Shown here in pieces: positions 1 through 23,632 of a stretch of DNA of 64,000 nt. Under the pieces are notes generated by a model. That model saw nothing but the letters and a program-made list of their open reading frames with translations, had not been told where the DNA came from and did not search any database. Numbering within the stretch: the first letter of the stretch is position 1; every line of letters begins with the position of its first letter. Both the position numbers and the translations under genes were made by a program. Source of the DNA: Nodularia sp. LEGE 06071 (lineage in GTDB: Bacteria > Cyanobacteriota > Cyanobacteriia > Cyanobacteriales > Nostocaceae). The DNA lies in the NCBI RefSeq assembly GCF_015207755.1, contig NZ_JADEWH010000005.1, positions 186,001 to 250,000 of the forward strand. Reading direction: 5' to 3'.

Positions 1-278
1 GTATTGGCTACATAGGCGCGTCGTTCTCTTCCATAGGTGCGAGTTTGTTCGGTATATAAAGTTACGGCTAGTAAGTCACCAATATAAGGTACTACCCACT
101 CATCGCAGGTTTCAATAAACCAGTTTTCATATAAATTGGCGATATCGGTTTCTACAGTTTCTAATTCCTGTTCAATTACACCGAGTAAGGCGCGTAGGGA
201 ACCGCCTTGGGTTTCGTCTCGGATACGGTAAATTGCTGGTATTAGGTTGTATAAACGTTCTGGGTTGGGGTTGTTCAT
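1..278 (-). CDS. Phage tail protein of the contractile injection system (partial, runs off left edge)
   Basis: The reading frame opens with ATG at 278 on the minus strand and stays open to the window edge (92 codons visible). It begins MNNPNPERLYNLIPAIYR and continues with an IRDETQGGSLRALL segment and an acidic helical stretch. This N-terminal look, a short YNLLP/IYR segment and then 'D..qGgsLraLl.vie.q', is typical of the phage tail proteins that follow the two large baseplate wedge genes in eCIS and phage-tail-like clusters. It lies 66 bp downstream of the propeller-containing wedge gene, on the same strand and in the expected order, so it probably belongs to the same operon. The C-terminal part is not in the window, so its domain content cannot be judged. 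Recognition is by pattern and context. Confidence 0.75.
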   Translation of the reverse strand, partial: MNNPNPERLYNLIPAIYRIRDETQGGSLRALLGVIEQELETVETDIANLYENWFIETCDEWVVPYIGDLLAVTLYTEQTRTYGRERRAYVAN

Positions 279-344: not shown

Positions 345-3300
345 TTATGGTTTGTTTATTAAGATGATACTTTTGGGATTGAGTAATAGTAATTGTGCGG
401 GTAAAACTTTACTCTGTTGTTCATCCCAGGTTGCTGTAGCTGCTGATAGGGATGGTTCTAAGGTTTTGGGACGAGAGGAGAGATAAAGTGCATCTAAATC
501 TACTGCAATTACACCTGTGATATTCTGGATAGCAGCGATCGCCTCTGAAGTAGTCACAGATTGTCCAAAACTCCGCCTTTCAAAGGAAAATGTTTCCTGT
601 AATGCAGTGCGAATTGCTGCTAATACTGGTTTGACTTCCCGTCGAGAATCTATCAAAATCTTAGCCTCCAAATTAAATAGCAATGGTTGATAGCTACCGA
701 TTTGCACATCTATCTGTTCCGGGGCGCGAGCTTTGGCGATCGCCTGCTCTAAATTGGTGTAAAGTTGAGAATCTGGCGTTACTGCTTTCCCATTCACCGC
801 CCCAATGGTCATATAAACAATGGGAATAGACTGATTAGGTATCACTTCCGCCTTGGCTTTACCAATACCAGCAAAAGCCCGACTAAAGTCTTCAAAGTCT
901 TGTAGAGAGACGATTCTATCCAAGGTGCGGACAGTTAGAGGTGCGCTGGTTCTTGCTTCATTTAATGCTTCTCTGGCTGCTGCGCCTGTTGCGGGTACAG
1001 GGTTTGTGACTTCCCGAATTCCCAAAGGTCGAGTTTTCAGTAAACTTAAGCTATCCTGTGCAATTTCTCCCGCTAACCCAATACCACTACGGTAACGCGC
1101 CATGATGTTTTCTAAACCACTGGGTAAACGTGCGCCTTTTTCACCATCTCCAAAGGTAATTGTCGTTGTGCCATCGTCATCTATGCGAGTAATATAATTT
1201 TGATCCAGGTGATTCAGTCCATACAATGAAGGGACTTCTTCCCAACGCACACCATCGACAAATAATTCTAAGGTAGTCTTAGCACCACTAGGAGTAGTTG
1301 CGGAAATGTAAGTCAGTGGTGGTTTATTTAATATAAAGTTTTGATTAGCTAAAGTACCATCACCGCTTCCTAAAACTTCCTCAATTGTCTCACCATGAGT
1401 CGCCGGAGTCACATTGGCGTAAATCACTGTAGTTGCAGGATCATAGCTATTTTGTAATGCTGTGCTTAAAGTGAGAATCGGTTGTAATTGGTCGTTTGGT
1501 GGTGTTTTGATTATACAAACCTCACTCACAATTTGATCATCTATGGAGGCTGGTTGTAAACTAATATCTTCTGGTGCATTCACTTCTAGAAAACCTTCAA
1601 ATCCGTTTCTATCTCGTAAATGCCATATTTGAGATTTTGGTGGTGAAAGTAATTGTAGTAAGTCGCCAATTTTAACCTCCACAGATGACAAGCCGTCAGG
1701 AGCGGTTAAAATGCCATATTTCTCCATTTTGGTACGGATGCGTTTACCACTGACAATGATGGTTTTTTCTGCTTCTAACCCTGAGACATACTCACTCAAA
1801 TAAATCTGATTTTCTCGAATCGGATCATGAAATATTTTTTGTTGTTGAATTTGAATACTCAAAGTTTCATCGGCTAGATTTAAACTTTCACTTTGAGCTA
1901 AAACTATGGTTTGACGCAGGTTGAAATCATTAGTGTTGAAACTATCTGCTGATAAAATACGGGTGATTTTATTATTTAGTCCAAAGTCTCGACGGGTGAT
2001 ATTTAATGAACCTTCAACTAGACAAGGCTTTGCAGTTTTAGCATCTTCTGTTAATAAGACTATCCAACTTTTTGGCAGAATTTTAGAATAAATATTGTCT
2101 AAATCTATCTCCTGGCTGGAAATTTCAAAGTTAGGCCATTCTTGTTGTGCATCTTCAACAAATCCAGCAAAGGTACTACCTGCAAAAAAGTTGTTAGCTG
2201 TACTAATAATTGTCGTAATATTTATATTTATGCCGATTTTAATTTTATTTGTAGTCCAATTATTATTTTGAGTTTTCTCATGGCTAAAAATCCCATTTTT
2301 GTTGCCTGATAATAAGTATTGGCTGACTGAATTATACGTTAAAGTCGTTACATGAGGATTTGAGTTAATTTCCACCCAATTGTCACCATGATCAATAGAC
2401 GAGAAAATACCATTCTGTGTCCCAGCAATTATATATTGTGCATCTTGAATAATCTCAGTAATTAGTGAATTAACTTGATGATTTAATTGTTGGAAAACCC
2501 AATTTTCTCCGTTATCTGAGGAACGATAAATACCATCATCTGTCCCAGCGAATATATAGTAATTCTCTTCAGTTTGATAAATCAGTAGCGACAGCACCGC
2601 TTTACCAATTAAGCCTTTAGCAGTCCAGTTTTTTCCTTGGTCTGGAGAGCGATAAATACCATCATCAGTTCCAGCAAATATATAAATTACGCCAATTATA
2701 AATGTTGTATCAGTTGATAAATTAGGGATAAAAGGTGCATTTACTGTAAAAGAAGTATCAGAAATAATACTAGTAACAGTTCTGACTTGATTTGCTGCTG
2801 TGATAATCTCGCCTAATTTGACACCTGTAGTTAAATTGTTTTCACTACTCGTTACAGTTGTCCCATCACTAGTAACTGTCCCAGTCCCATTATTAATGGT
2901 ACTATAACTGACTAAAGAACGAATAACGGTGTTAGGTAAGGCTGTATTAATAGTATTAACATTGGTATTATTATTTGTATATTCTACCCGCACGCTTCCC
3001 AAATTAATGGGAGTCCAATTTTCACCATGATCTTTGGAACTAAACACGCCACCGCCAGGAGTTCCGGCTAAAATATATCCCCGTGCATCAATATAAAATG
3101 TTTGAATAGTTAGATTTGTAATGCCAATATTGACAGATTTCCAGTTATCACCGTTATCTGTTGAGCGAAAAATACCTGCGCCTGATGTCCCGATAAACAA
3201 GTAATTGTTAGTTGGATTGACGGCTAAACAACGAATATCAATTGTTGGTAACCCGGCGTTAATTGCTGTCCAATTCTCACTATTATTACTACTGCGAAAA

Positions 3301-4151
3301 ATGCCGCCTTTAATTGTACCTTGGTAATCACGCTTAATTTCATTGGGCATATCTTCCCATTTGGGGGCATTATAACCAAATAGGGCAACTCGTTGGCGAA
3401 AGGCGAAAACTTGGGGATTTTGCAGGGGACTAGAAATTTCCGATGGTAACTGCTGTTCCCAGGTAATTTGGGTATAACCCATGCTGGCATTTGTCTGTAC
3501 TGTTGCTAAGGTGAGGAGATACCAAAGATTTTCTTCGGCTATTATTAAGATGCGATCGCCTGCTTGTAGTTGCGTATTTATACCCTGTAAATATAATCTT
3601 TTAGTATCGCTATTAACTTGCTGTGGTCTTGTCTGTCTGGGTTTAAGTAGATTCCACTGCACACGAGCAACAATTTCCGCACTGGTTTCAAAGGTTTCCG
3701 GAAGTTCATCTTCCCCAGGAATACTGACAATTTGTGTACCAGCAGGGACTGTAGCCATTCCCAAACTACCGGGCGCATCATCGACGGTAAAGGCTAAATA
3801 GGTACTCGCAGCTACACCGGGATCAAGTTCATAACCAATCGCCCTAGCTAATTCTAATACTGAGCGCAGTTCGGTAGCAGTTTCAATAAAACCTTCGTTA
3901 GCAATGCGTTCTTGGTAAAAAGTCAGGACATCAGCCACCACCGCCCAAGCATCTAAAATGGCGATCGCCGGATCATCTACAGCACGAGTTGTCAATTTTG
4001 CCAAGGGGGCAGTATTAGTAATATTATTTGCATATCGCGGTAAATTAGCTAATAGGCGATCGCGAAAACTAGCCCAATCACTAATGCGGTAAGCTAGGCT
4101 TGGTAAGCCAGGACGATTATAGATTTTTGGCGGTTTATCGGTAGGATTCAT
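345..4151 (-). CDS. Baseplate wedge protein (Afp12/TIGR02243-like) with an inserted Asp-box beta-propeller
   Basis: A 1268-residue protein. Residues 1-275 and about 690-1268 look like a 'putative baseplate assembly protein' of phage-tail-like systems: an N-terminal segment with DPAIAILDAWAVVADVLTFYQERIANE, and a C-terminal segment with an ITFGDGEKGARLPSG motif and a TVRTLDRIVSLQDFEDFSRAFAGIGKA motif, both seen in gp6/gpJ-like wedge proteins. Between them, residues about 280-660 contain six clear Asp-box (BNR) motifs of the form S-x-D/N-x-G-x-x-W, ending at W294, W337, W379, W509, W551 and W592, plus a degenerate one near W632. This spacing predicts a seven-bladed or nearly seven-bladed propeller. 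A small extra beta domain (about 420-480) interrupts it. The gene sits between the 839-residue wedge gene and the tail-protein gene. Inference: the propeller decorates the outside of the baseplate and could contact a membrane or glycan. Confidence 0.85.
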   Translation of the reverse strand: MNPTDKPPKIYNRPGLPSLAYRISDWASFRDRLLANLPRYANNITNTAPLAKLTTRAVDDPAIAILDAWAVVADVLTFYQERIANEGFIETATELRSVLELARAIGYELDPGVAASTYLAFTVDDAPGSLGMATVPAGTQIVSIPGEDELPETFETSAEIVARVQWNLLKPRQTRPQQVNSDTKRLYLQGINTQLQAGDRILIIAEENLWYLLTLATVQTNASMGYTQITWEQQLPSEISSPLQNPQVFAFRQRVALFGYNAPKWEDMPNEIKRDYQGTIKGGIFRSSNNSENWTAINAGLPTIDIRCLAVNPTNNYLFIGTSGAGIFRSTDNGDNWKSVNIGITNLTIQTFYIDARGYILAGTPGGGVFSSKDHGENWTPINLGSVRVEYTNNNTNVNTINTALPNTVIRSLVSYSTINNGTGTVTSDGTTVTSSENNLTTGVKLGEIITAANQVRTVTSIISDTSFTVNAPFIPNLSTDTTFIIGVIYIFAGTDDGIYRSPDQGKNWTAKGLIGKAVLSLLIYQTEENYYIFAGTDDGIYRSSDNGENWVFQQLNHQVNSLITEIIQDAQYIIAGTQNGIFSSIDHGDNWVEINSNPHVTTLTYNSVSQYLLSGNKNGIFSHEKTQNNNWTTNKIKIGININITTIISTANNFFAGSTFAGFVEDAQQEWPNFEISSQEIDLDNIYSKILPKSWIVLLTEDAKTAKPCLVEGSLNITRRDFGLNNKITRILSADSFNTNDFNLRQTIVLAQSESLNLADETLSIQIQQQKIFHDPIRENQIYLSEYVSGLEAEKTIIVSGKRIRTKMEKYGILTAPDGLSSVEVKIGDLLQLLSPPKSQIWHLRDRNGFEGFLEVNAPEDISLQPASIDDQIVSEVCIIKTPPNDQLQPILTLSTALQNSYDPATTVIYANVTPATHGETIEEVLGSGDGTLANQNFILNKPPLTYISATTPSGAKTTLELFVDGVRWEEVPSLYGLNHLDQNYITRIDDDGTTTITFGDGEKGARLPSGLENIMARYRSGIGLAGEIAQDSLSLLKTRPLGIREVTNPVPATGAAAREALNEARTSAPLTVRTLDRIVSLQDFEDFSRAFAGIGKAKAEVIPNQSIPIVYMTIGAVNGKAVTPDSQLYTNLEQAIAKARAPEQIDVQIGSYQPLLFNLEAKILIDSRREVKPVLAAIRTALQETFSFERRSFGQSVTTSEAIAAIQNITGVIAVDLDALYLSSRPKTLEPSLSAATATWDEQQSKVLPAQLLLLNPKSIILINKP

Positions 4152-11576: not shown

Positions 11577-11685
11577 ATTCAGGGTGCAGAGGAGAAATAA
11601 AATTTAAACTTATCATTTATGACCCCATTCAAGAGGTAATTCTGCAATAGATACCATAGAGACTTATCGCAATATAATTCAGTCG

Positions 11686-11982
11686 TTGTTGACTGCTTAT
11701 GCTGCCATCCCAATTGCCAATGGATTGATTGATTGCTACACGGTTTTTGATACCAAACAAGACCATTACCAAGTCATGAATGTGGGATGGGATGGCCATC
11801 GGCGGGTTTATGGTTGTGTTTTACATTTAGATATTCAGGAGGGAAAGATTTGGATACAGCAAAATATGACGGAAATGAGAGTGGCTCAGGAACTTGTGGA
11901 TCGAGGGGTTGCGAAGGAAGATATTGTGCTGGGGTTTCAAGCTCCTGAAATGCGCGAATATACAGGCTATGCAGTTGTTTAA
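11686..11982 (+). CDS. XisI family protein, start codon possibly lost (ATG to ATA)
   Basis: A XisI-like protein (fdxN excision controlling factor family). It shows the family's AYAAIPIANGLIDCYTVFDTKQDHYQVMNVGWDGHRRVYGCVLHLDIQEGKIWIQQNMTE and the ending VLGFQAPEMREYTGYAVV. The usual N-terminus (IDTIETYRNIIQSLL) is encoded just upstream from 11647, but where the ATG is expected there is ATA, with AAGAGGT about 8 nt before it. Translation could use this ATA poorly or begin at the TTG at 11686, which would drop 13 conserved residues. XisI genes normally follow xisH, but no xisH is seen. The gene is therefore either weakly expressed or a young pseudogene. Confidence 0.75.
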   Translation: MLTAYAAIPIANGLIDCYTVFDTKQDHYQVMNVGWDGHRRVYGCVLHLDIQEGKIWIQQNMTEMRVAQELVDRGVAKEDIVLGFQAPEMREYTGYAVV

Positions 11983-12011
11983 ATCAAAGAGCGATCGCAC
12001 TTGTGCATAAA

Positions 12012-12300
12012 TTATCGTTGCTGAGTCATTGCGATCGCAGTTTCCACAGTCAATTCTGAGATGTTGCCCAGGGTGGGGAGTGTGTCAGTTTCAGAATAAA
12101 CTAATGGTAACTCTTGATTTTCCCAAACCCAGATTTGCTTTCGCTGAATATCAATGAACCAAGCAAGCTGTGTCCCGTTACTTAAGCAGTGCAGGATTTT
12201 GTTTTGTAGTTCTATGGTGCTTTGGTCGGGGGAGCGAATTTCAATTAACCAGTCTGGTGAACCTTGTAGTGGCCCATCTTCATCCGAAAGGCGATCGCAC
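12012..12300 (-). pseudogene. Uma2 family endonuclease, 5'-truncated remnant
   Basis: The frame encodes roughly the C-terminal half of a Uma2 (DUF820) restriction-endonuclease-like protein: RLSDEDGPLQGSPDWLIEIRSPDQSTIELQNKI (the PD..iEi.SPs....l..K core), then LAWFIDIQRKQIWVWEN and a typical C-terminus. Uma2 proteins are normally around 180-200 residues; here the N-terminal half is missing and is replaced by the 124-residue gene of the injection-system operon, whose 3' end abuts this point. The conserved D and E/K residues of the core are still present, but without the N-terminus the product is probably not functional. Confidence 0.7.
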
Positions 12301-12312
12301 TTCCTGCACTGA

Positions 12313-12687
12313 TTATTTTGTCTCGGACATTTCAAGTAGATGCAATGTATTATCTGGATCTACCCAGTAAAACTCAAAGTCATGGGAAATAGAGTTTTTC
12401 GACTGTTCGGATATTGAAAATTCTTGGCGATACTTTTTTGGGACTGTTTGGCTAACCAATTTTTGAAATGCCCGAATTAAGAATTTACCCTCTTTGAACT
12501 CCAACTCCAATTTATAAATTTCTTTTGCAGAATTTCTCATGCTATGTGCGGTTTCTATAGTGAGATGAGTACCTTCTAAAACAAAAGTTGGTCTTTCTCG
12601 TAACTCGTTGAGATAAACTCCTTCATTGCCCACAAATATGCCGACACGCTCTAATCTTCTGAGGAAAATTCCGATGAAATTATCCAT
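12313..12687 (-). CDS. Hypothetical protein downstream of the DUF4157 cargo gene
   Basis: A 124-residue protein of no recognised family. It begins MDNFIGIFLRRLERVGIFVGNEGVYLNELRERPTFVLEG and has mixed alpha/beta character, with several charged segments and no signal peptide or membrane helix. It starts 14 bp after the stop of the cargo gene (12702) on the same strand, so the two are almost certainly co-transcribed. A gene in this position next to an injected effector is often a chaperone, an adaptor or an immunity protein. That is inference from position only. Its 3' end meets the Uma2 remnant. Confidence 0.6.
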   Translation of the reverse strand: MDNFIGIFLRRLERVGIFVGNEGVYLNELRERPTFVLEGTHLTIETAHSMRNSAKEIYKLELEFKEGKFLIRAFQKLVSQTVPKKYRQEFSISEQSKNSISHDFEFYWVDPDNTLHLLEMSETK

Positions 12688-12701
12688 AACTAAAAACCTG
12701 A

Positions 12702-13928
12702 CTATATACTTGGTCTTCCCGAACTTGTGCTAAAGCTGCCACCTATGCTACCGCTACCAATCGCGCTGTTTACTGTGTTACTGGAGATACCTATACTGCT
12801 GCTCGATGTACTACTAATAGTGTTTACACTGCTTCCCCTATCCGCCGGCAGCACACCTGCTGTGCCTCCGTTTGCCGCTACTATACCTACACCCAATGCA
12901 CTGGGATTAGGAATACCTAATGATTTATATGCGAGGCTTTCGTTAGTTACTGTCTTCCATCCTCGCGCTGCAAAGGAGGCACAATTATTTATGTATGACC
13001 ATCTGTTATTACCCACAATATAACCGTTTAGATTGCCCAAATCGGTAGCATCTAAATTAGTCGCTCTTTCTGCCGCAGCTGCTCTTCCTACTTCTTTATC
13101 TGAATAATAGCCGATTGGATCTTGATTCCCCCAAGTACCATGAGTTTCTTCACTACCTCCAACAGGAGTGTAGGACAACCAGGCGTGTCCGGAAATTAAA
13201 GAAGAGCCAACATCAGAAGATTTAATTTTTAATGTTCCAACAACTGCTCCGCCTCTGAACTGAATTGTACTGGATTGAGCTTTTCGCTGCAACACGCCCA
13301 TTTCCTTTAATTCTTCTTCTGTATTCTCTGGAAAGCTGGTTTCTTTGAGCTGTAGCGTAGATGCAGAAGGGGCCGATTTTCGTAATTGAGTGGTGGAAAC
13401 ATCTGATTGTAATGCCTTAGCCCCCATCACATCAGCTTCTCTCTCCAACCCCTGATTATCATTAATCGCCATACCCTTAGCCTGTATCGTCGGCTTTACC
13501 CGTCCCTGCTTCTGCTGGACAACGTGCCAAGCTTCATGGGGTAAATGCTTTTCTTGTCCTGGCGCAACATGAATATCTGTCCCTTGGGTATATGCCAACG
13601 CTTGTAACTGGGGAGGTTTAGAGGAATTGTAATGTACTCTCACATCATCCATAGCCATACCAGAGAGGTTTTCTATCCCGGCTTTCAGGGAATCAGGTAG
13701 TCCGGTTTTATTTGATCTCTCTTCCCCAGTTCCCGATGATTTTGCCTGCATTACTGCTTCTGTACCCGTAACTGGGACTCGGCTAAAGTCTTTATGGAAA
13801 CTTGACTCGCTATAGTGGGATGATTCTGCGTCTGGAGAATGCACAGCAGCACGTTGTAAAATCCCACTGACTAAAGGTGTATCACTCTTAGAGGGTGTTT
13901 GATTCTGTGTAACTTGTTGGCGATTCAT
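12702..13928 (-). CDS. eCIS core (DUF4157) cargo protein with putative cysteine-hydrolase C-terminal domain
   Basis: A 408-residue protein. Residues 1-75 are polar and look disordered. Residues about 78-175 form a DUF4157 'eCIS core' domain: MAMDDVRVHYNSSKPPQLQALAYTQGTDIHVAPGQEKHLP, then HEAWHVVQQ with the zinc-protease-like HExxH at H131-H135, and LEREADVMGAKAL carrying a possible third acidic ligand. Residues about 225-365 look like a permuted NlpC/P60 or papain-like fold, with a candidate catalytic His in GHAWLSY (H248) and Cys in NNCASFAARGW (C316). The tail (366-408) is Ser/Gly-rich. DUF4157 domains are known to mark eCIS-associated toxins, so this is the best candidate for the injected effector. 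The start ATG overlaps the upstream small gene by 4 bp (ATGA). Confidence 0.85.
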   Translation of the reverse strand: MNRQQVTQNQTPSKSDTPLVSGILQRAAVHSPDAESSHYSESSFHKDFSRVPVTGTEAVMQAKSSGTGEERSNKTGLPDSLKAGIENLSGMAMDDVRVHYNSSKPPQLQALAYTQGTDIHVAPGQEKHLPHEAWHVVQQKQGRVKPTIQAKGMAINDNQGLEREADVMGAKALQSDVSTTQLRKSAPSASTLQLKETSFPENTEEELKEMGVLQRKAQSSTIQFRGGAVVGTLKIKSSDVGSSLISGHAWLSYTPVGGSEETHGTWGNQDPIGYYSDKEVGRAAAAERATNLDATDLGNLNGYIVGNNRWSYINNCASFAARGWKTVTNESLAYKSLGIPNPSALGVGIVAANGGTAGVLPADRGSSVNTISSTSSSSIGISSNTVNSAIGSGSIGGSFSTSSGRPSI

Positions 13929-14179
13929 TGATTAAGTCCTGTATATATAGATTGGGCAATTTGCTCTCCCATCAAAGTGGGTTGGGAATTATTTGTAATA
14001 TTTAAACTTGCAGGTAACTTAGGAATATTACCGCCATTTTGCAAACTCGCAGGTACACCGTTTACTGTCATCAGCCGAGATAATTCAGTTTCTATAGCCG
14101 CTTGCAATTGGCGACGCTGACGGAGTGAAAGGTCTACTCCCTCTAAAATTATCCGGTCAATTTGCAGATTAATATTCAT
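13925..14179 (-). CDS. Small conserved eCIS-associated protein
   Basis: About 84 residues, starting at the ATG at 14179 with GGGAGC about 10 nt upstream; a GTG at 14200 is a longer but less likely start. The protein begins MNINLQIDRIILEGVDLSLRQRRQLQAAIETELSRLM, an N-terminal strand followed by a long helix, and ends in a polar tail with QIAQSIYTGL. Small proteins of this type often precede DUF4157 cargo genes in eCIS loci. It overlaps the cargo gene by ATGA, implying coupled translation. The role is unknown; loading or chaperoning of the cargo is plausible but unproven. Confidence 0.65.
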   Translation of the reverse strand: MNINLQIDRIILEGVDLSLRQRRQLQAAIETELSRLMTVNGVPASLQNGGNIPKLPASLNITNNSQPTLMGEQIAQSIYTGLNQ

Positions 14180-14248
14180 ATAAAAAGCGCTCCCGAACAC
14201 AAGACTCTTTTACTTAATTTTTTCTCTGGTTTTGAACTATATCTAACG

Positions 14249-14558
14249 CCCCCTAAATTCCCCATACTTGGGGGACTTTGGTATCTTTCCTTCCGCCTGA
14301 TTTGGCAAATATGCTTGGTAATTTATTAAAGATGAAAGTTTCATATAAAGCCCCCTAAATCCCCCAAGTATGGGGGACTTTGATATCTTTCTTTCCGCCT
14401 GATTTGGCAAAGATACTTGGTAATTTATTAAAGGCGCAAGTTCCATTCTGGTTCCTCCCAGACTTGGAAGGGCTAGGGGGGCAAATATATGACAATTTAT
14501 TAAAGGTAACATTTCCATTCTAGTTCCCCCCAAACTTGGGGGGCTAGGGGGGCTAAAT
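14249..14558. repeat. Tandem array of ~100-bp intergenic repeats with CCCCCAAGTATGGGGG-type hairpins
   Basis: Two nearly complete units (about 14249-14350 and 14351-14452) share 'GCCCCCTAAAT..CCCC', 'GGGGGACTTTG.TATCTTTC.TTCCGCCTGATTTGGCAAA', and 'CTTGGTAATTTATTAAAG'. Two shorter, diverged units follow up to 14558. Each contains a small inverted repeat of C and G runs. A related sequence lies at 45530-45630. Open frames across this block are artefacts of the repeat. It separates the small eCIS gene from the DUF559 gene. Confidence 0.7.
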
Positions 14559-14942
14559 TCAAGTTGTGGACGAAAGAACAAAACATCTAATTTTATCCAA
14601 AACTTTCGGCAAATCATGCATCACCTCTTCATTGCTGAATCTGAGAACTTGATACCCATATTCCCCTAATTTCGCCGTCCTTGACTGATCATATTCTGCC
14701 CGACTGGCGTGAATTTCTCCATCAACTTCCACAACTAATTTACAAGCAGGACAATAAAAATCTAAAATAAAATTGCCTACAGGATGCTGACAACGAAAAC
14801 GTAACCCATTCAGTTGCTTGTTTCGTAGTGCTGACCATAAACGCGCTTCAGCCTGGGTCAAATTTTGTCTTAATTTTCTAGCATTTTCTTCTATTTCCGG
14901 TATTGTTCCCCGAATTCTATTTTTAAGGTTTCTAGAGTACAT
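14559..14942 (-). CDS. DUF559 family endonuclease-like protein
   Basis: 127 residues from the ATG at 14942, which follows the ATPase stop immediately; an ATG at 14963 overlapping the ATPase gene is possible. It shows the DUF559/Vsr-like PD-(D/E)xK pattern: ARKLRQNLTQAEARLWSALRNKQLNGLRFRCQHPVGNFILDFYCPACKLVVEVDGEIHASRAEYDQSRTAKLGEYGYQVLRFSNEEV, with the catalytic D in FILDFYC, E in VVEVDG, and a following Gln/His. These are common free-standing genes in cyanobacteria. Its place inside the injection-system operon, next to repeats, suggests it was inserted rather than being a structural part. Confidence 0.85.
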   Translation of the reverse strand: MYSRNLKNRIRGTIPEIEENARKLRQNLTQAEARLWSALRNKQLNGLRFRCQHPVGNFILDFYCPACKLVVEVDGEIHASRAEYDQSRTAKLGEYGYQVLRFSNEEVMHDLPKVLDKIRCFVLSSTT

Positions 14943-14943
14943 A

Positions 14944-16878
14944 TTAAGAAAAATCCGCTTCATTAATCGGTCGTTCTAATTTGCGAAACTCTGTCCTGGC
15001 AGCTGACAATACTATTTTCATTGTCACAGGTGTTCCGGCTTGGGCTGCTAAAAAAGCCGCATTCACAGCGATGTTGTGGATATTTCCCCCCGTTAAATTG
15101 AATTTAGCTAACTTCTTAAAATCCAATTCTTCTGTTGGTGTCTCTGGGGGAAAAACCTTCTCCCACATGGCTTTTCGTTCATTCACTCCTGGAAAGACGA
15201 AATTCACAATAAACCGTAATCGCCGCATAAAGGCTGCATCCAAAGCACTCTTGATATTGGTGGCTAAAATAGCTAAACCGCGATAAGCTTCTAATCTTTG
15301 TAATAAGTAGTTAATTTCTATATTCGCATATCTGTCATGACTATCTTTAACTTCGCTGCGTTTACCAAACAATGCATCAGCTTCATCAAAAAACAGAATT
15401 GCTCCCCCGTCTTCGGCTGCATCAAATAACCTGCGGAGGTTTTTCTCAGTTTCCCCAATATACTTACTGACTACTGCGGAAAGGTCTATACGGTAAAGGT
15501 TCAACTGCAAGTCATTGGCTATGACTTCGGCGGCCATTGTCTTTCCTGTGCCACTTTCCCCAGCAAACATCACACTGATTCCCATTCCCCGGTTCATTCG
15601 TTCCCGAAATCCCCATTGGTCATAAACTATACTTCTTTGTCGCACTTGGTCGGCTATTTGGTGCAGTAAATCTAATTCTTCATCAGGGAGGACAATATCT
15701 GACCAAGTGGCTTTGATTTCTAGGCGTTGGGCAAGGGTATCTAACCGGGGGCGAGTGCTGGCTAGGCAATCATTCCACAGTTGATGGTGGGAATGTGAGG
15801 CAGATTTGGCAATTTTGGCGATTTCTACGAAATTCAGGTGAAATTGATTGGCTAATTGGGTTGCATATCCATCGGCTTGGGGTTCTAATGTTAATTCCCA
15901 CGCTTGTTGCTGTTCTGTTGGGGTAGGTTTGGCGATGTCAAATGTGACTGTGGGAAGTTCTAGAGAAAATCCCGTATCGCGGATATCTAAAAAAATGATG
16001 CCTTCGTTGTGAGTTAAAAATTGCCGTAGTGCGGTACTTCCCGTTTTCTCATCTATCCCTTGCACATCGATATACAAAGCCAGTGGTAATAATCTGCTTT
16101 CTCGCTGCCACAACCGCGCAAAATTTGCTAATTCAGTGCTTTGGGTGGGCAGTAGTTCCACAGGGAGACGATATAGTTGCAGTTCTAATTCTTGACAAAC
16201 TTGCCAAGTTACAGTTTGTTTGCTCTGGGTATCAATACCTGATAACTGGAAGATGGGGAAGTGTTGCTGTTGTATGCTTTGGTTGATTTGGAGAGCGATC
16301 GCATCTGCTATTCTTTGTTGAGATGGGGGTAACGGCAAAATCTCATCCTGTCCTGACCAAGGATTCAGGGGTAAAACGATTTTAGATAGGCGATCGTCAA
16401 GATAATTAACTCCTTTGATATAGTTAACAATGCGCTCATCTGCTCTGAGGGGACTGGTAGTTAGGGGTTGAATATTCGACTGATGAATTTCTAACAATTG
16501 CCAATAACGCAGCGGCCGATTTGGTAAGACTACATCCCAAGCTACATGATCAAGGCAACTGAGAGCCAGGGCAAAGGTAGGATAGGGACGCTGAGGATTA
16601 TCTTGAGCTTCAGCACATAATTGAGCAATGTCTGTGGCAAATTCCATTCCTGCACAGAGTAAAAGTAGCGATCGCTCAAAAGCTGATAATCCAAATATAT
16701 GACTGAGTATAATTAAGGCTGGGGGCGGTGCTATCTCTGCTAATTCCGCCATGATTTTCGCTGCTTTGTCAATGTCTTCCTGAGTTGTTGATTGTGACTT
16801 CAGCCGCGATCGCAACCAAGTTAAAGACACAGCCAAGTATGCCCCATTTCTTTCTTGCCAGGAACTATACTCTGTCAT
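14944..16878 (-). CDS. AAA+ ATPase of the contractile injection system (Afp15-like)
   Basis: A 644-residue protein. The N-terminal 390 residues are the less conserved eCIS-specific part. Residues about 390-640 form a classical AAA+ module with Walker A GESGTGKT (440-447), Walker B ILFFDEAD (494-501), and an arginine-finger region FMRRLRFIVNFVFPG. Such an ATPase is a core gene of every eCIS/PVC/Afp cluster and is needed for particle assembly, although its exact step is debated. Its ATG overlaps the stop of the cap gene (ATGA), showing coupled translation. Confidence 0.94.
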   Translation of the reverse strand: MTEYSSWQERNGAYLAVSLTWLRSRLKSQSTTQEDIDKAAKIMAELAEIAPPPALIILSHIFGLSAFERSLLLLCAGMEFATDIAQLCAEAQDNPQRPYPTFALALSCLDHVAWDVVLPNRPLRYWQLLEIHQSNIQPLTTSPLRADERIVNYIKGVNYLDDRLSKIVLPLNPWSGQDEILPLPPSQQRIADAIALQINQSIQQQHFPIFQLSGIDTQSKQTVTWQVCQELELQLYRLPVELLPTQSTELANFARLWQRESRLLPLALYIDVQGIDEKTGSTALRQFLTHNEGIIFLDIRDTGFSLELPTVTFDIAKPTPTEQQQAWELTLEPQADGYATQLANQFHLNFVEIAKIAKSASHSHHQLWNDCLASTRPRLDTLAQRLEIKATWSDIVLPDEELDLLHQIADQVRQRSIVYDQWGFRERMNRGMGISVMFAGESGTGKTMAAEVIANDLQLNLYRIDLSAVVSKYIGETEKNLRRLFDAAEDGGAILFFDEADALFGKRSEVKDSHDRYANIEINYLLQRLEAYRGLAILATNIKSALDAAFMRRLRFIVNFVFPGVNERKAMWEKVFPPETPTEELDFKKLAKFNLTGGNIHNIAVNAAFLAAQAGTPVTMKIVLSAARTEFRKLERPINEADFS

Positions 16879-22547: not shown

Positions 22548-23059
22548 AAAATATTCCTCTTAGGCTGAGTCAGTGCAGATCGCACAAGATGATCTAAGAA
22601 TACAATGTCTCTTTCCTGATTTACGTATTTTAGGCTGTTGATGTGGAATTCTGTCTCAGAGGTTGTTTTAAAAGTGACCGGCTGTGATTTTAGGCAGGTA
22701 TGATCTCCCCTAGCCCCGCTATATACGGCTACGGTGTACACACAAGTCGAGAAACTCTCACCCACATTGGTTTGAATCTGGTAGGGTGCTAACGGATGTA
22801 TTAGCCTTACGGCATAACACGCCACTACGAATAATTTATATTTCTTGACATACATTGAATTTTTCTTGCTCACTTACTTACGCAACTGACGCAATGCGAT
22901 GGGCGATCGCCATTTTGTAGTGCTTCACTAATAAAATATTCATGAAAAAATCAGGAGAGTATCATTGTTGAGTTGTAGCTATCAAAGAAATTATTAAGCT
23001 AATGGCAAAAATTGATCATGCAATTCCCCAATGGACTATTCAATCAGGAGTTAACAATC
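22548..23059. promoter_or_regulatory. Divergent region between sheath operon and secreted-protein gene; one 20-bp repeat copy
   Basis: This region must hold the promoter of the sheath operon (leftward). It contains one copy of the dispersed 20-mer CTACGGTGTACACACAAGTC at 22729-22748; its other copies are at 25191, 25549, 45501 and 45652. An open frame across it (22424-22873, minus) is not credible because it overlaps the sheath gene and the repeat. No convincing -10/-35 pair was found. Confidence 0.4.
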
Positions 23060-23632
23060 ATGAAATCTCACAAACTTTATTGGATTCTGTTTTTCCTAAT
23101 TTTAATCCTGCCTACACCAGTTTTACAGATCCTAAAAAATTCTGTTGCTATTGCCCCAAAGACAAATACAAACACAGCAACTAACTTTAAAACTTATGTA
23201 GAAAAAAATACCTATTCGATTTCTTACCCATCAACATGGATTGCAGATAGAAGCAGTAGAGAGTTAGTAATTTTTTATAACCAAAAGCTTACAGGTAACA
23301 GTGAGGAACTGCCTTTAAATTTGGTTAAAACTGATATCAAAGTCGAAAATATTAATTTTGATGAAAAAATCAATAATTACAAGTCTGCTTCTGGAGTAGG
23401 CTTAGGTGATGAAATGCCAGTCAAAGAAGAAAAATTAAATATTGGCGGTACAGAAGCATATCGAGTTTGGTGGGGAATTGATCAAAAAATAGGTTCTGTG
23501 CTGACTTTATTCAAATATAAGAATCAAGTCGTATCAGTTCATACTTTCATTAATCCTAATAATACTCAAGCATTGCCAATAATTTATCAAACTCACAACT
23601 CTTTGAAGGTGTCACAAGACTATCCGCGTTAA
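23060..23632 (+). CDS. Secreted PsbP-like protein
   Basis: About 190 residues from the ATG at 23060, with CAGGAG about 10 nt upstream. Residues 1-30 (MKSHKLYWILFFLILILPTPVLQIL) form a signal peptide or N-terminal anchor. The rest has the layout of PsbP/PsbP-like lumen or periplasm proteins: YVEKNTYSISYPSTWIADRSSRELVIFYN, then NLVKTDIKVENINFDE, IGGTEAYRVWWGI and a VVSVHTFINPNN segment near the end. The family has a beta-sandwich and often associates with photosystem or membrane surfaces. The match is structural in style rather than close; the specific role is unknown. The fni gene follows 33 bp later on the same strand. Confidence 0.6.
   Translation: MKSHKLYWILFFLILILPTPVLQILKNSVAIAPKTNTNTATNFKTYVEKNTYSISYPSTWIADRSSRELVIFYNQKLTGNSEELPLNLVKTDIKVENINFDEKINNYKSASGVGLGDEMPVKEEKLNIGGTEAYRVWWGIDQKIGSVLTLFKYKNQVVSVHTFINPNNTQALPIIYQTHNSLKVSQDYPR

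Follow-up and report, generated by a model that had tools for sequence, protein, structure and literature searches.

The 64,000-nucleotide stretch of Nodularia sp. LEGE 06071 analyzed here (contig NZ_JADEWH010000005.1, positions 186,001 to 250,000; hereafter the window) begins within a contractile injection system (CIS) locus in which a baseplate wedge protein carries a predicted Asp-box beta-propeller. This protein, P0001, is encoded by an open reading frame of 1268 codons at 345-4151 on the minus strand and is of the TIGR02243/Baseplate_J class, with matches to the TIGR02243 putative baseplate assembly protein (E 2.7e-69; 234.4 bits, above the curated cut-off of 155.8), to Baseplate_J (E 4.3e-5) and to the phrog_219 baseplate wedge family (8.9e-20). 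The genes of the locus are ordered partner, wedge, adaptor and DUF6519. The partner wedge protein P0002 (4420-6939, minus strand; 839 aa) also exceeds the TIGR02243 cut-off (284.1 bits) and has no blades. The adaptor is a Tail_P2_I/TIGR02242-like protein of 1536 aa, with scores for both families under their cut-offs; its first 92 aa lie in the window (3-278, minus strand) and the gene continues past it (11668-16278, minus strand, in the stretch L007).

The propeller lies at 2172-3302 on the minus strand (aa 284-660) and is assigned seven blades from the strand count and a fold match. An earlier note on this DNA had placed it at 2170-3315 and had described six clear Asp boxes plus a degenerate one. 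Five boxes (aa 330, 372, 502, 544 and 585) conform strictly to [ST]x[DN]xGxxW and the degenerate repeat can be made out by eye at about aa 622-632, but the sixth, at aa 287, is a variant (SSNNSENW) in which S replaces G; the six together span 2376-3293 (minus strand). Five strict boxes occurred in none of 5000 shuffled versions of the whole of P0001 (mean 0.02, maximum 1). The boxes are spaced 41-43 aa apart save for one step of 130 aa, which is the place of a beta-module described below. The insert is AT-rich relative to its flanks, as the earlier note stated: its GC content (aa 281-671) is 0.350, compared with 0.444 on the N-terminal side (aa 1-252) and 0.433 on the C-terminal side (aa 884-1268). 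However, GC stays low past the insert (0.333 for aa 672-800) and is also low in the middle of the wedge of some propeller-less relatives (0.355 in G466, with flanks of 0.425 and 0.449), so AT-richness alone is no evidence of foreign origin, and a recent foreign acquisition of the insert is not supported.

Structure prediction of the insert alone, a step suggested in the earlier note, gave blades. The usable AlphaFold2 (AF2) model was built on the five-row alignment A7, alignments A3, A5 and A6 having been set aside because MAFFT misplaced rows in blades 4-7, and together with the fold match it predicts a closed seven-bladed propeller. The insert shares the Asp-box motif, the fold and profile matches with Asp-box beta-propellers such as sortilin Vps10, Ycf48, GH74 and BNR proteins, a family that has been reviewed (PMC2716378). 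It matches sortilin-Vps10-like repeats in Pfam above cut-off (2.6e-16), and a profile of five propellers (A2; that of P0001 and those of four relatives) matches 27 distinct sequences among solved structures at E<=0.001, including the BNR protein 3b7f (1.4e-13), GH74, Ycf48 and sortilin, with no CIS wedge protein among the matches listed. GH74 structures head the Foldseek list, and the best NCBIfam likeness in the insert is to the F510_1955 glycosylhydrolase (5.6e-33), as might be expected if the propeller were a glycosidase trimming surface glycans of the target. We consider such an enzyme highly improbable: the F510_1955 score of 114 bits is under the curated cut-off of 175, no glycosidase model in Pfam or NCBIfam exceeds its cut-off for P0001, and the listed GH74 chains are ~700-780 aa long, a length that corresponds to two propellers, whereas the insert is a single one. 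The Ycf48 likeness of P0001 (PSII_BNR 7.9e-5, 22.5 bits, under the cut-off of 27; NCBIfam Ycf48 31.7 bits, cut-off 326) would suit a different role, in which the propellers tie the particle to something inside the producing cell, either a protein or a membrane such as the thylakoid. Because the sortilin-Vps10 and glycosylhydrolase matches are stronger, the latter being itself under cut-off, the Ycf48 match probably reflects a shared motif.

The propeller occupies a loop between the motifs FGxNAP..MP and WPxF..SWxVL, with the N-terminal edge of the insertion site at 3303-3401 (FRQRVALFGYNAPKWEDMPNEIK) and the C-terminal edge at 2052-2171 (EWPNF..IDLDNIYSKILPKSW; both minus strand). The flanks FR..xxFGxNAPxW..K and EWxxF..IDLDxxYxxILxxSWxVL are kept across 11 chosen wedges. 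A position between two conserved wedge halves, as first proposed in the earlier note, is thus predicted, and propeller-less relatives have the site short or otherwise filled. The loop is short in G499 (FGHNAPDPNYLPPTTVSGSSTGNQWNNFNIFYG); in other lineages it is either short or occupied by Asp-box-free inserts with no relation visible by eye. In P0001 the beta-module, of ~72 aa, lies in the loop between strands A and B of blade 3 (2688-2903, minus strand; GTVTSDGTTVT..VRTVTSIISDTSFTVN), a fragment of which has no match in PHROG. The module is present in some relatives and missing from others: P0001 has propeller and module, G680 has the propeller without the module, and in G554 and G462 the module is the sole loop content. 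A similar stretch recurs in another blade of G002 and of G012. The wedge loop after FGHNA in L066 and L067 holds the module alone, without a propeller, possibly as a remnant or a seed of the insert. The wedge of L006 (Crocosphaera) has an unusually hydrophobic stretch within the propeller region (about aa 577-618), which may reflect a frameshift or be a membrane segment.

Related propellers lie in two further loops. Blades were counted with a home-made hidden Markov model (HMM) of the blade, derived from 33 repeats of G000, G012, G032, G002 and G084, according to which 21 of the 26 propeller-bearing wedges contain a second group of blades nearer the C-terminus. This group follows VSGK(R)xR in the relatives of alignment A1 and, as read directly, in G012 and G515. 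The corresponding loop of P0001 (1707-1760, minus strand; VSGKRIR..GILT) is empty, the group is also missing in G680, G515 carries this group alone, and G627 (cut) and G677 (split) could not be scored. The adaptor has Asp-box blades of its own (seven hits, about aa 988-1460) and is matched by P0001 at 39% identity (3.2e-21); a P0001 search of its own genome at E<=0.001 retrieves only itself, the adaptor and the partner. These blades are flanked by RYRCQPDLAL and PxFTSxxYGxPxYAQLS, and among the eight of 27 adaptors in which both edges are recognised by pattern, the distance between them is 403-499 aa in the six that have blades (G000, G002, G548, G551, G571 and G799) and 36 and 8 aa in the two plain ones (G079 and G033, respectively). 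At the 26 propeller loci the adaptor was not found in three and is cut in one, and 16 of the 22 complete adaptors, including that of Nodularia, have blades; none of 33 beside plain wedges does, that of G535 breaking off near the loop, and bladed adaptors number 16 of 56 overall. The idea that propellers in the wedge and in the adaptor are coupled one to one was rejected, since six loci (G667, G580, G677, G604, G635 and G627) combine a bladed wedge with a bladeless adaptor. Three loops of the wedge-complex proteins thus tolerate large inserts, and it is prediction and comparison that show the fold, the insertion site and the related propellers in the second wedge loop of relatives and in the adaptor loop.

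Wedge-core matches are found at E<=1e-25 in 43 of 217 genomes of the host family and in 33 of 388 sampled from the order (ten of these 33 in the host family), and at E<=1e-20 in six of 386 sampled from the phylum. From the 66 genomes matched in the family and order searches we read 59 loci in 58 genomes, the host locus included; eight genomes were unread (G445, G522, G661, G712, G716, G723, G769 and G815), having frames shorter than 1140 aa, or fragments only in G661, and second loci of G515, G521 and G604 stand outside the count. Mapping the insert across these non-independent loci, also suggested in the earlier note, gave wedge blades in 26 of the 59 cyanobacterial loci (at least six hits each) and none in the other 33, and blades were present in none of 58 partner TIGR02243 proteins, many of which are truncated at the stretch edge. 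A tree was built from 57 wedge cores and two outgroup rows (G677 and G627 excluded as split and cut), and in it all 24 propeller wedges fall within one clade of 29 (support 97/99), with five plain wedges also inside it, and a subclade of 19 is entirely propeller-bearing (95/99). By eye, this pattern corresponds to a single early gain followed by losses, or to two or more gains; change counts on the tree compare the two propeller groups only, and G805, G476 and G033 are on long branches and less surely placed. Plasmid searches, our sole view of other phyla, matched 18 records, and none of three non-cyanobacterial wedge frames from them has an Asp box, the loop itself having been read in two. 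Protein searches confirmed no wedge or propeller relatives in viral contigs, 12 phage records matched weakly, over no more than 27% of P0001, and an Asp-box DNA pattern picked out six phage contigs with remote similarity that were not used in the model. The P0001 propeller is real and well located, is no chance motif, and is present beyond this one genome.

In every one of the 91 pairs formed by 14 sequences, conservation is lower in the propeller than in either half of the core, with G476 and G515 not measurable. In blades 1-3, 59 of 144 positions are shared by at least nine of 11 sequences, against 17 of 124 in blades 4-6, where alignment gaps depress the count; the beta-module is not scorable because five of the 11 lack it. 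Most positions kept in nine of the 11 resemble blade-framework motifs by eye, a further point against a glycosidase. Kept blades 1-3 and variable blades 4-6 are what a mounted head for recognition or docking would be expected to show, and we read one side of the propeller as a constant mount and the other as a variable binding face. Conserved blades 1-3 would also suit a protein-protein interface within a scaffold in which the propellers brace adjacent wedges, cage the spike or dock fibres and have no outside ligand, and related propellers are indeed found on both wedge and adaptor; in tCIS, the thylakoid-anchored CIS of Anabaena, and in AlgoCIS, Cis11 extensions enclose the spike in a cage (PMC8894136, PMC12237407). 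However, the wedge has no blades in 33 of the 59 loci, the first insertion site spans 401-1051 aa in the 15 wedges measured, and loci carry one, two or three propellers; because such variation in number and size is odd for a symmetric brace, a scaffold is less fitting and we think it unlikely.

The best match in the PDB of both P0001 (4.1e-13) and P0002 (3.9e-14) is 9gtp_1K, Cis11 of Streptomyces coelicolor (9GTP), which has a homologous core but is 652 aa long and unmatched by the propeller profile. The Streptomyces baseplate wedge consists of two Cis11 and one Cis12, with Cis11 peripheral and surface exposed (PMC12237407), and the two TIGR02243 genes and one adaptor here resemble this arrangement, although S. 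coelicolor uses two copies of one Cis11 and Nodularia has two different genes. The plasmid-borne extracellular CIS (eCIS) of Streptomyces europaeiscabiei (NZ_CP109155.1) has the same order as here (gp25, a 2568-nt gene, a TIGR02243-annotated wedge, a 2220-nt gene and DUF6519), but its 2451-nt wedge gene has a short loop after FGWNAP and a frame without an Asp box. The Anabaena tCIS (Cis11 All3317, Cis12 All3315) likewise has extra domains on its baseplate proteins: Cis11 has three, one of them making the cage, a Cis12 extension forms a connector to the thylakoid membrane, which Cis13 penetrates (PMC8894136). A tie to this 'extended' baseplate, suggested in the earlier note, is unsupported: the locus contains a pair of full-length TIGR02243 genes along with an adaptor of the Tail_P2_I type and a fibre-like DUF6519 gene. 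The tCIS entry 7b5h, which contains Cis11 and perhaps also Cis12, is not retrieved by P0001 or P0002 (E<=1), by the propeller profile (E<=0.001) or by the core profile A4; an identity of the insert with the tCIS extension is not supported, and the idea that the propeller is a usual part of the tCIS family, which the earlier note had named as a refutation, is not borne out. A profile-profile comparison of wedge cores aligned the C-terminal part only, no frame assignable to the full tCIS Cis11 emerged from a search of 60 family genomes, and CIS12_fam, a model that may correspond to All3315, has no match in the host genome; the word 'propeller' is absent from the main text of the tCIS paper (PMC8894136). 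Judged from its sequence, the locus appears unlike the published tCIS, in whose deposited proteins sequence searches detected no propeller. An intracellular anchor would have its precedent in the Cis12 connector and Cis13 of that system, but with a differing CIS gene set and the weaker Ycf48 match we regard it as quite improbable here.

Among other eCIS, the eBAP3 fibres carry beta-propeller lectins proposed to bind glycans and so also place a propeller on the particle, but these sit on tail fibres with collagen-like shafts rather than in a wedge protein, and target binding by eCIS is credited to tail fibres (PMC12923769). Searches of the literature on contractile injection and phage tail-like baseplates, in a coverage that mostly omits subscription journals, brought up no paper describing a wedge protein with a propeller, and the available parts of PMC12998442 and PMC12210884 contain nothing bearing on the question.

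We propose, with a probability of roughly 0.55, that the propellers act as multivalent heads, for recognition or for docking, that set the particle on a surface before firing. By analogy with Streptomyces, P0001 and P0002 would take both Cis11 places and the adaptor the Cis12 place, and with six wedges per baseplate, as in solved CIS, there would be 12 propellers here and ~18 in those relatives that have three for each wedge. The conserved blades 1-3 would face the baseplate and the variable blades 4-6 would hold the partner. The surface on which the particle is placed would be the target envelope or, in the producer itself, a membrane or a protein. Since a fibre-like gene and a candidate with an eCIS_core domain share the locus, the propellers would supplement rather than replace the fibre. 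Several points weigh against such docking heads. The fibre-like protein could handle all target recognition, the rapid divergence is also to be expected of a decorative loop, and the binding side could instead be the conserved blades. Gaps reduce the counts for blades 4-6, and sequence pairs and loci are not independent of each other. The AF2 model derives from only five alignment rows, with low confidence at aa 382-401 and in the beta-module and middling confidence for the first strand of blade 3, and AF2 of the insert without an alignment gave a predicted local distance difference test score (pLDDT) of only 30.4. A position at the 'surface' or 'outer rim', a thylakoid or glycan partner as suggested in the earlier note, and the recognition role itself are all putative.

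Somewhat more tentatively, the docking heads may amount to an undescribed CIS design, in which 12 to ~18 exchangeable Asp-box heads per particle, with constant and variable faces, permit retargeting independent of the fibres. The three loops of this conjectured design would be distributed over two proteins of the wedge complex, two in the Cis11-type wedge and one in the Tail_P2_I-like adaptor. Propellers displayed on the baseplate wedge itself would give a clade of cyanobacterial systems a second, fibre-independent means of selecting the surface for docking or of controlling when to fire. This question lends itself to direct testing, because the loops form a series that runs from short through module-only and one-propeller to multi-propeller.

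The DUF6519 gene (L007 8414-11665, minus strand) encodes a 1083-aa protein, probably the tail fibre, in which blocks of sequence recur and an S74 chaperone domain lies at the C-terminus. The candidate cargo protein with an eCIS_core domain (PF13699, 6e-11) is encoded at 12705-13928 (minus strand) and has no further Pfam match at E<=0.001. A weak PsbP-like protein (2.9e-5, under cut-off) is encoded at 23012-23632 (plus strand) of the window, adjoining a sheath gene on the opposite strand. A different cyanobacterial CIS type, near the Streptomyces CIS, is found in L055, L056, L057, L108 and L109, with a wedge of ~1068-1219 aa and a second one of ~312-335 aa; its family was tested in L055 only. 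L055 and L108/L109 were considered as tCIS loci and rejected, the L055 wedge being nearest to Streptomyces Cis11 (3e-65) and only weakly similar to All3317 (7.7e-8). Both CIS types are represented among the wedge matches of G002, G012 and G029.

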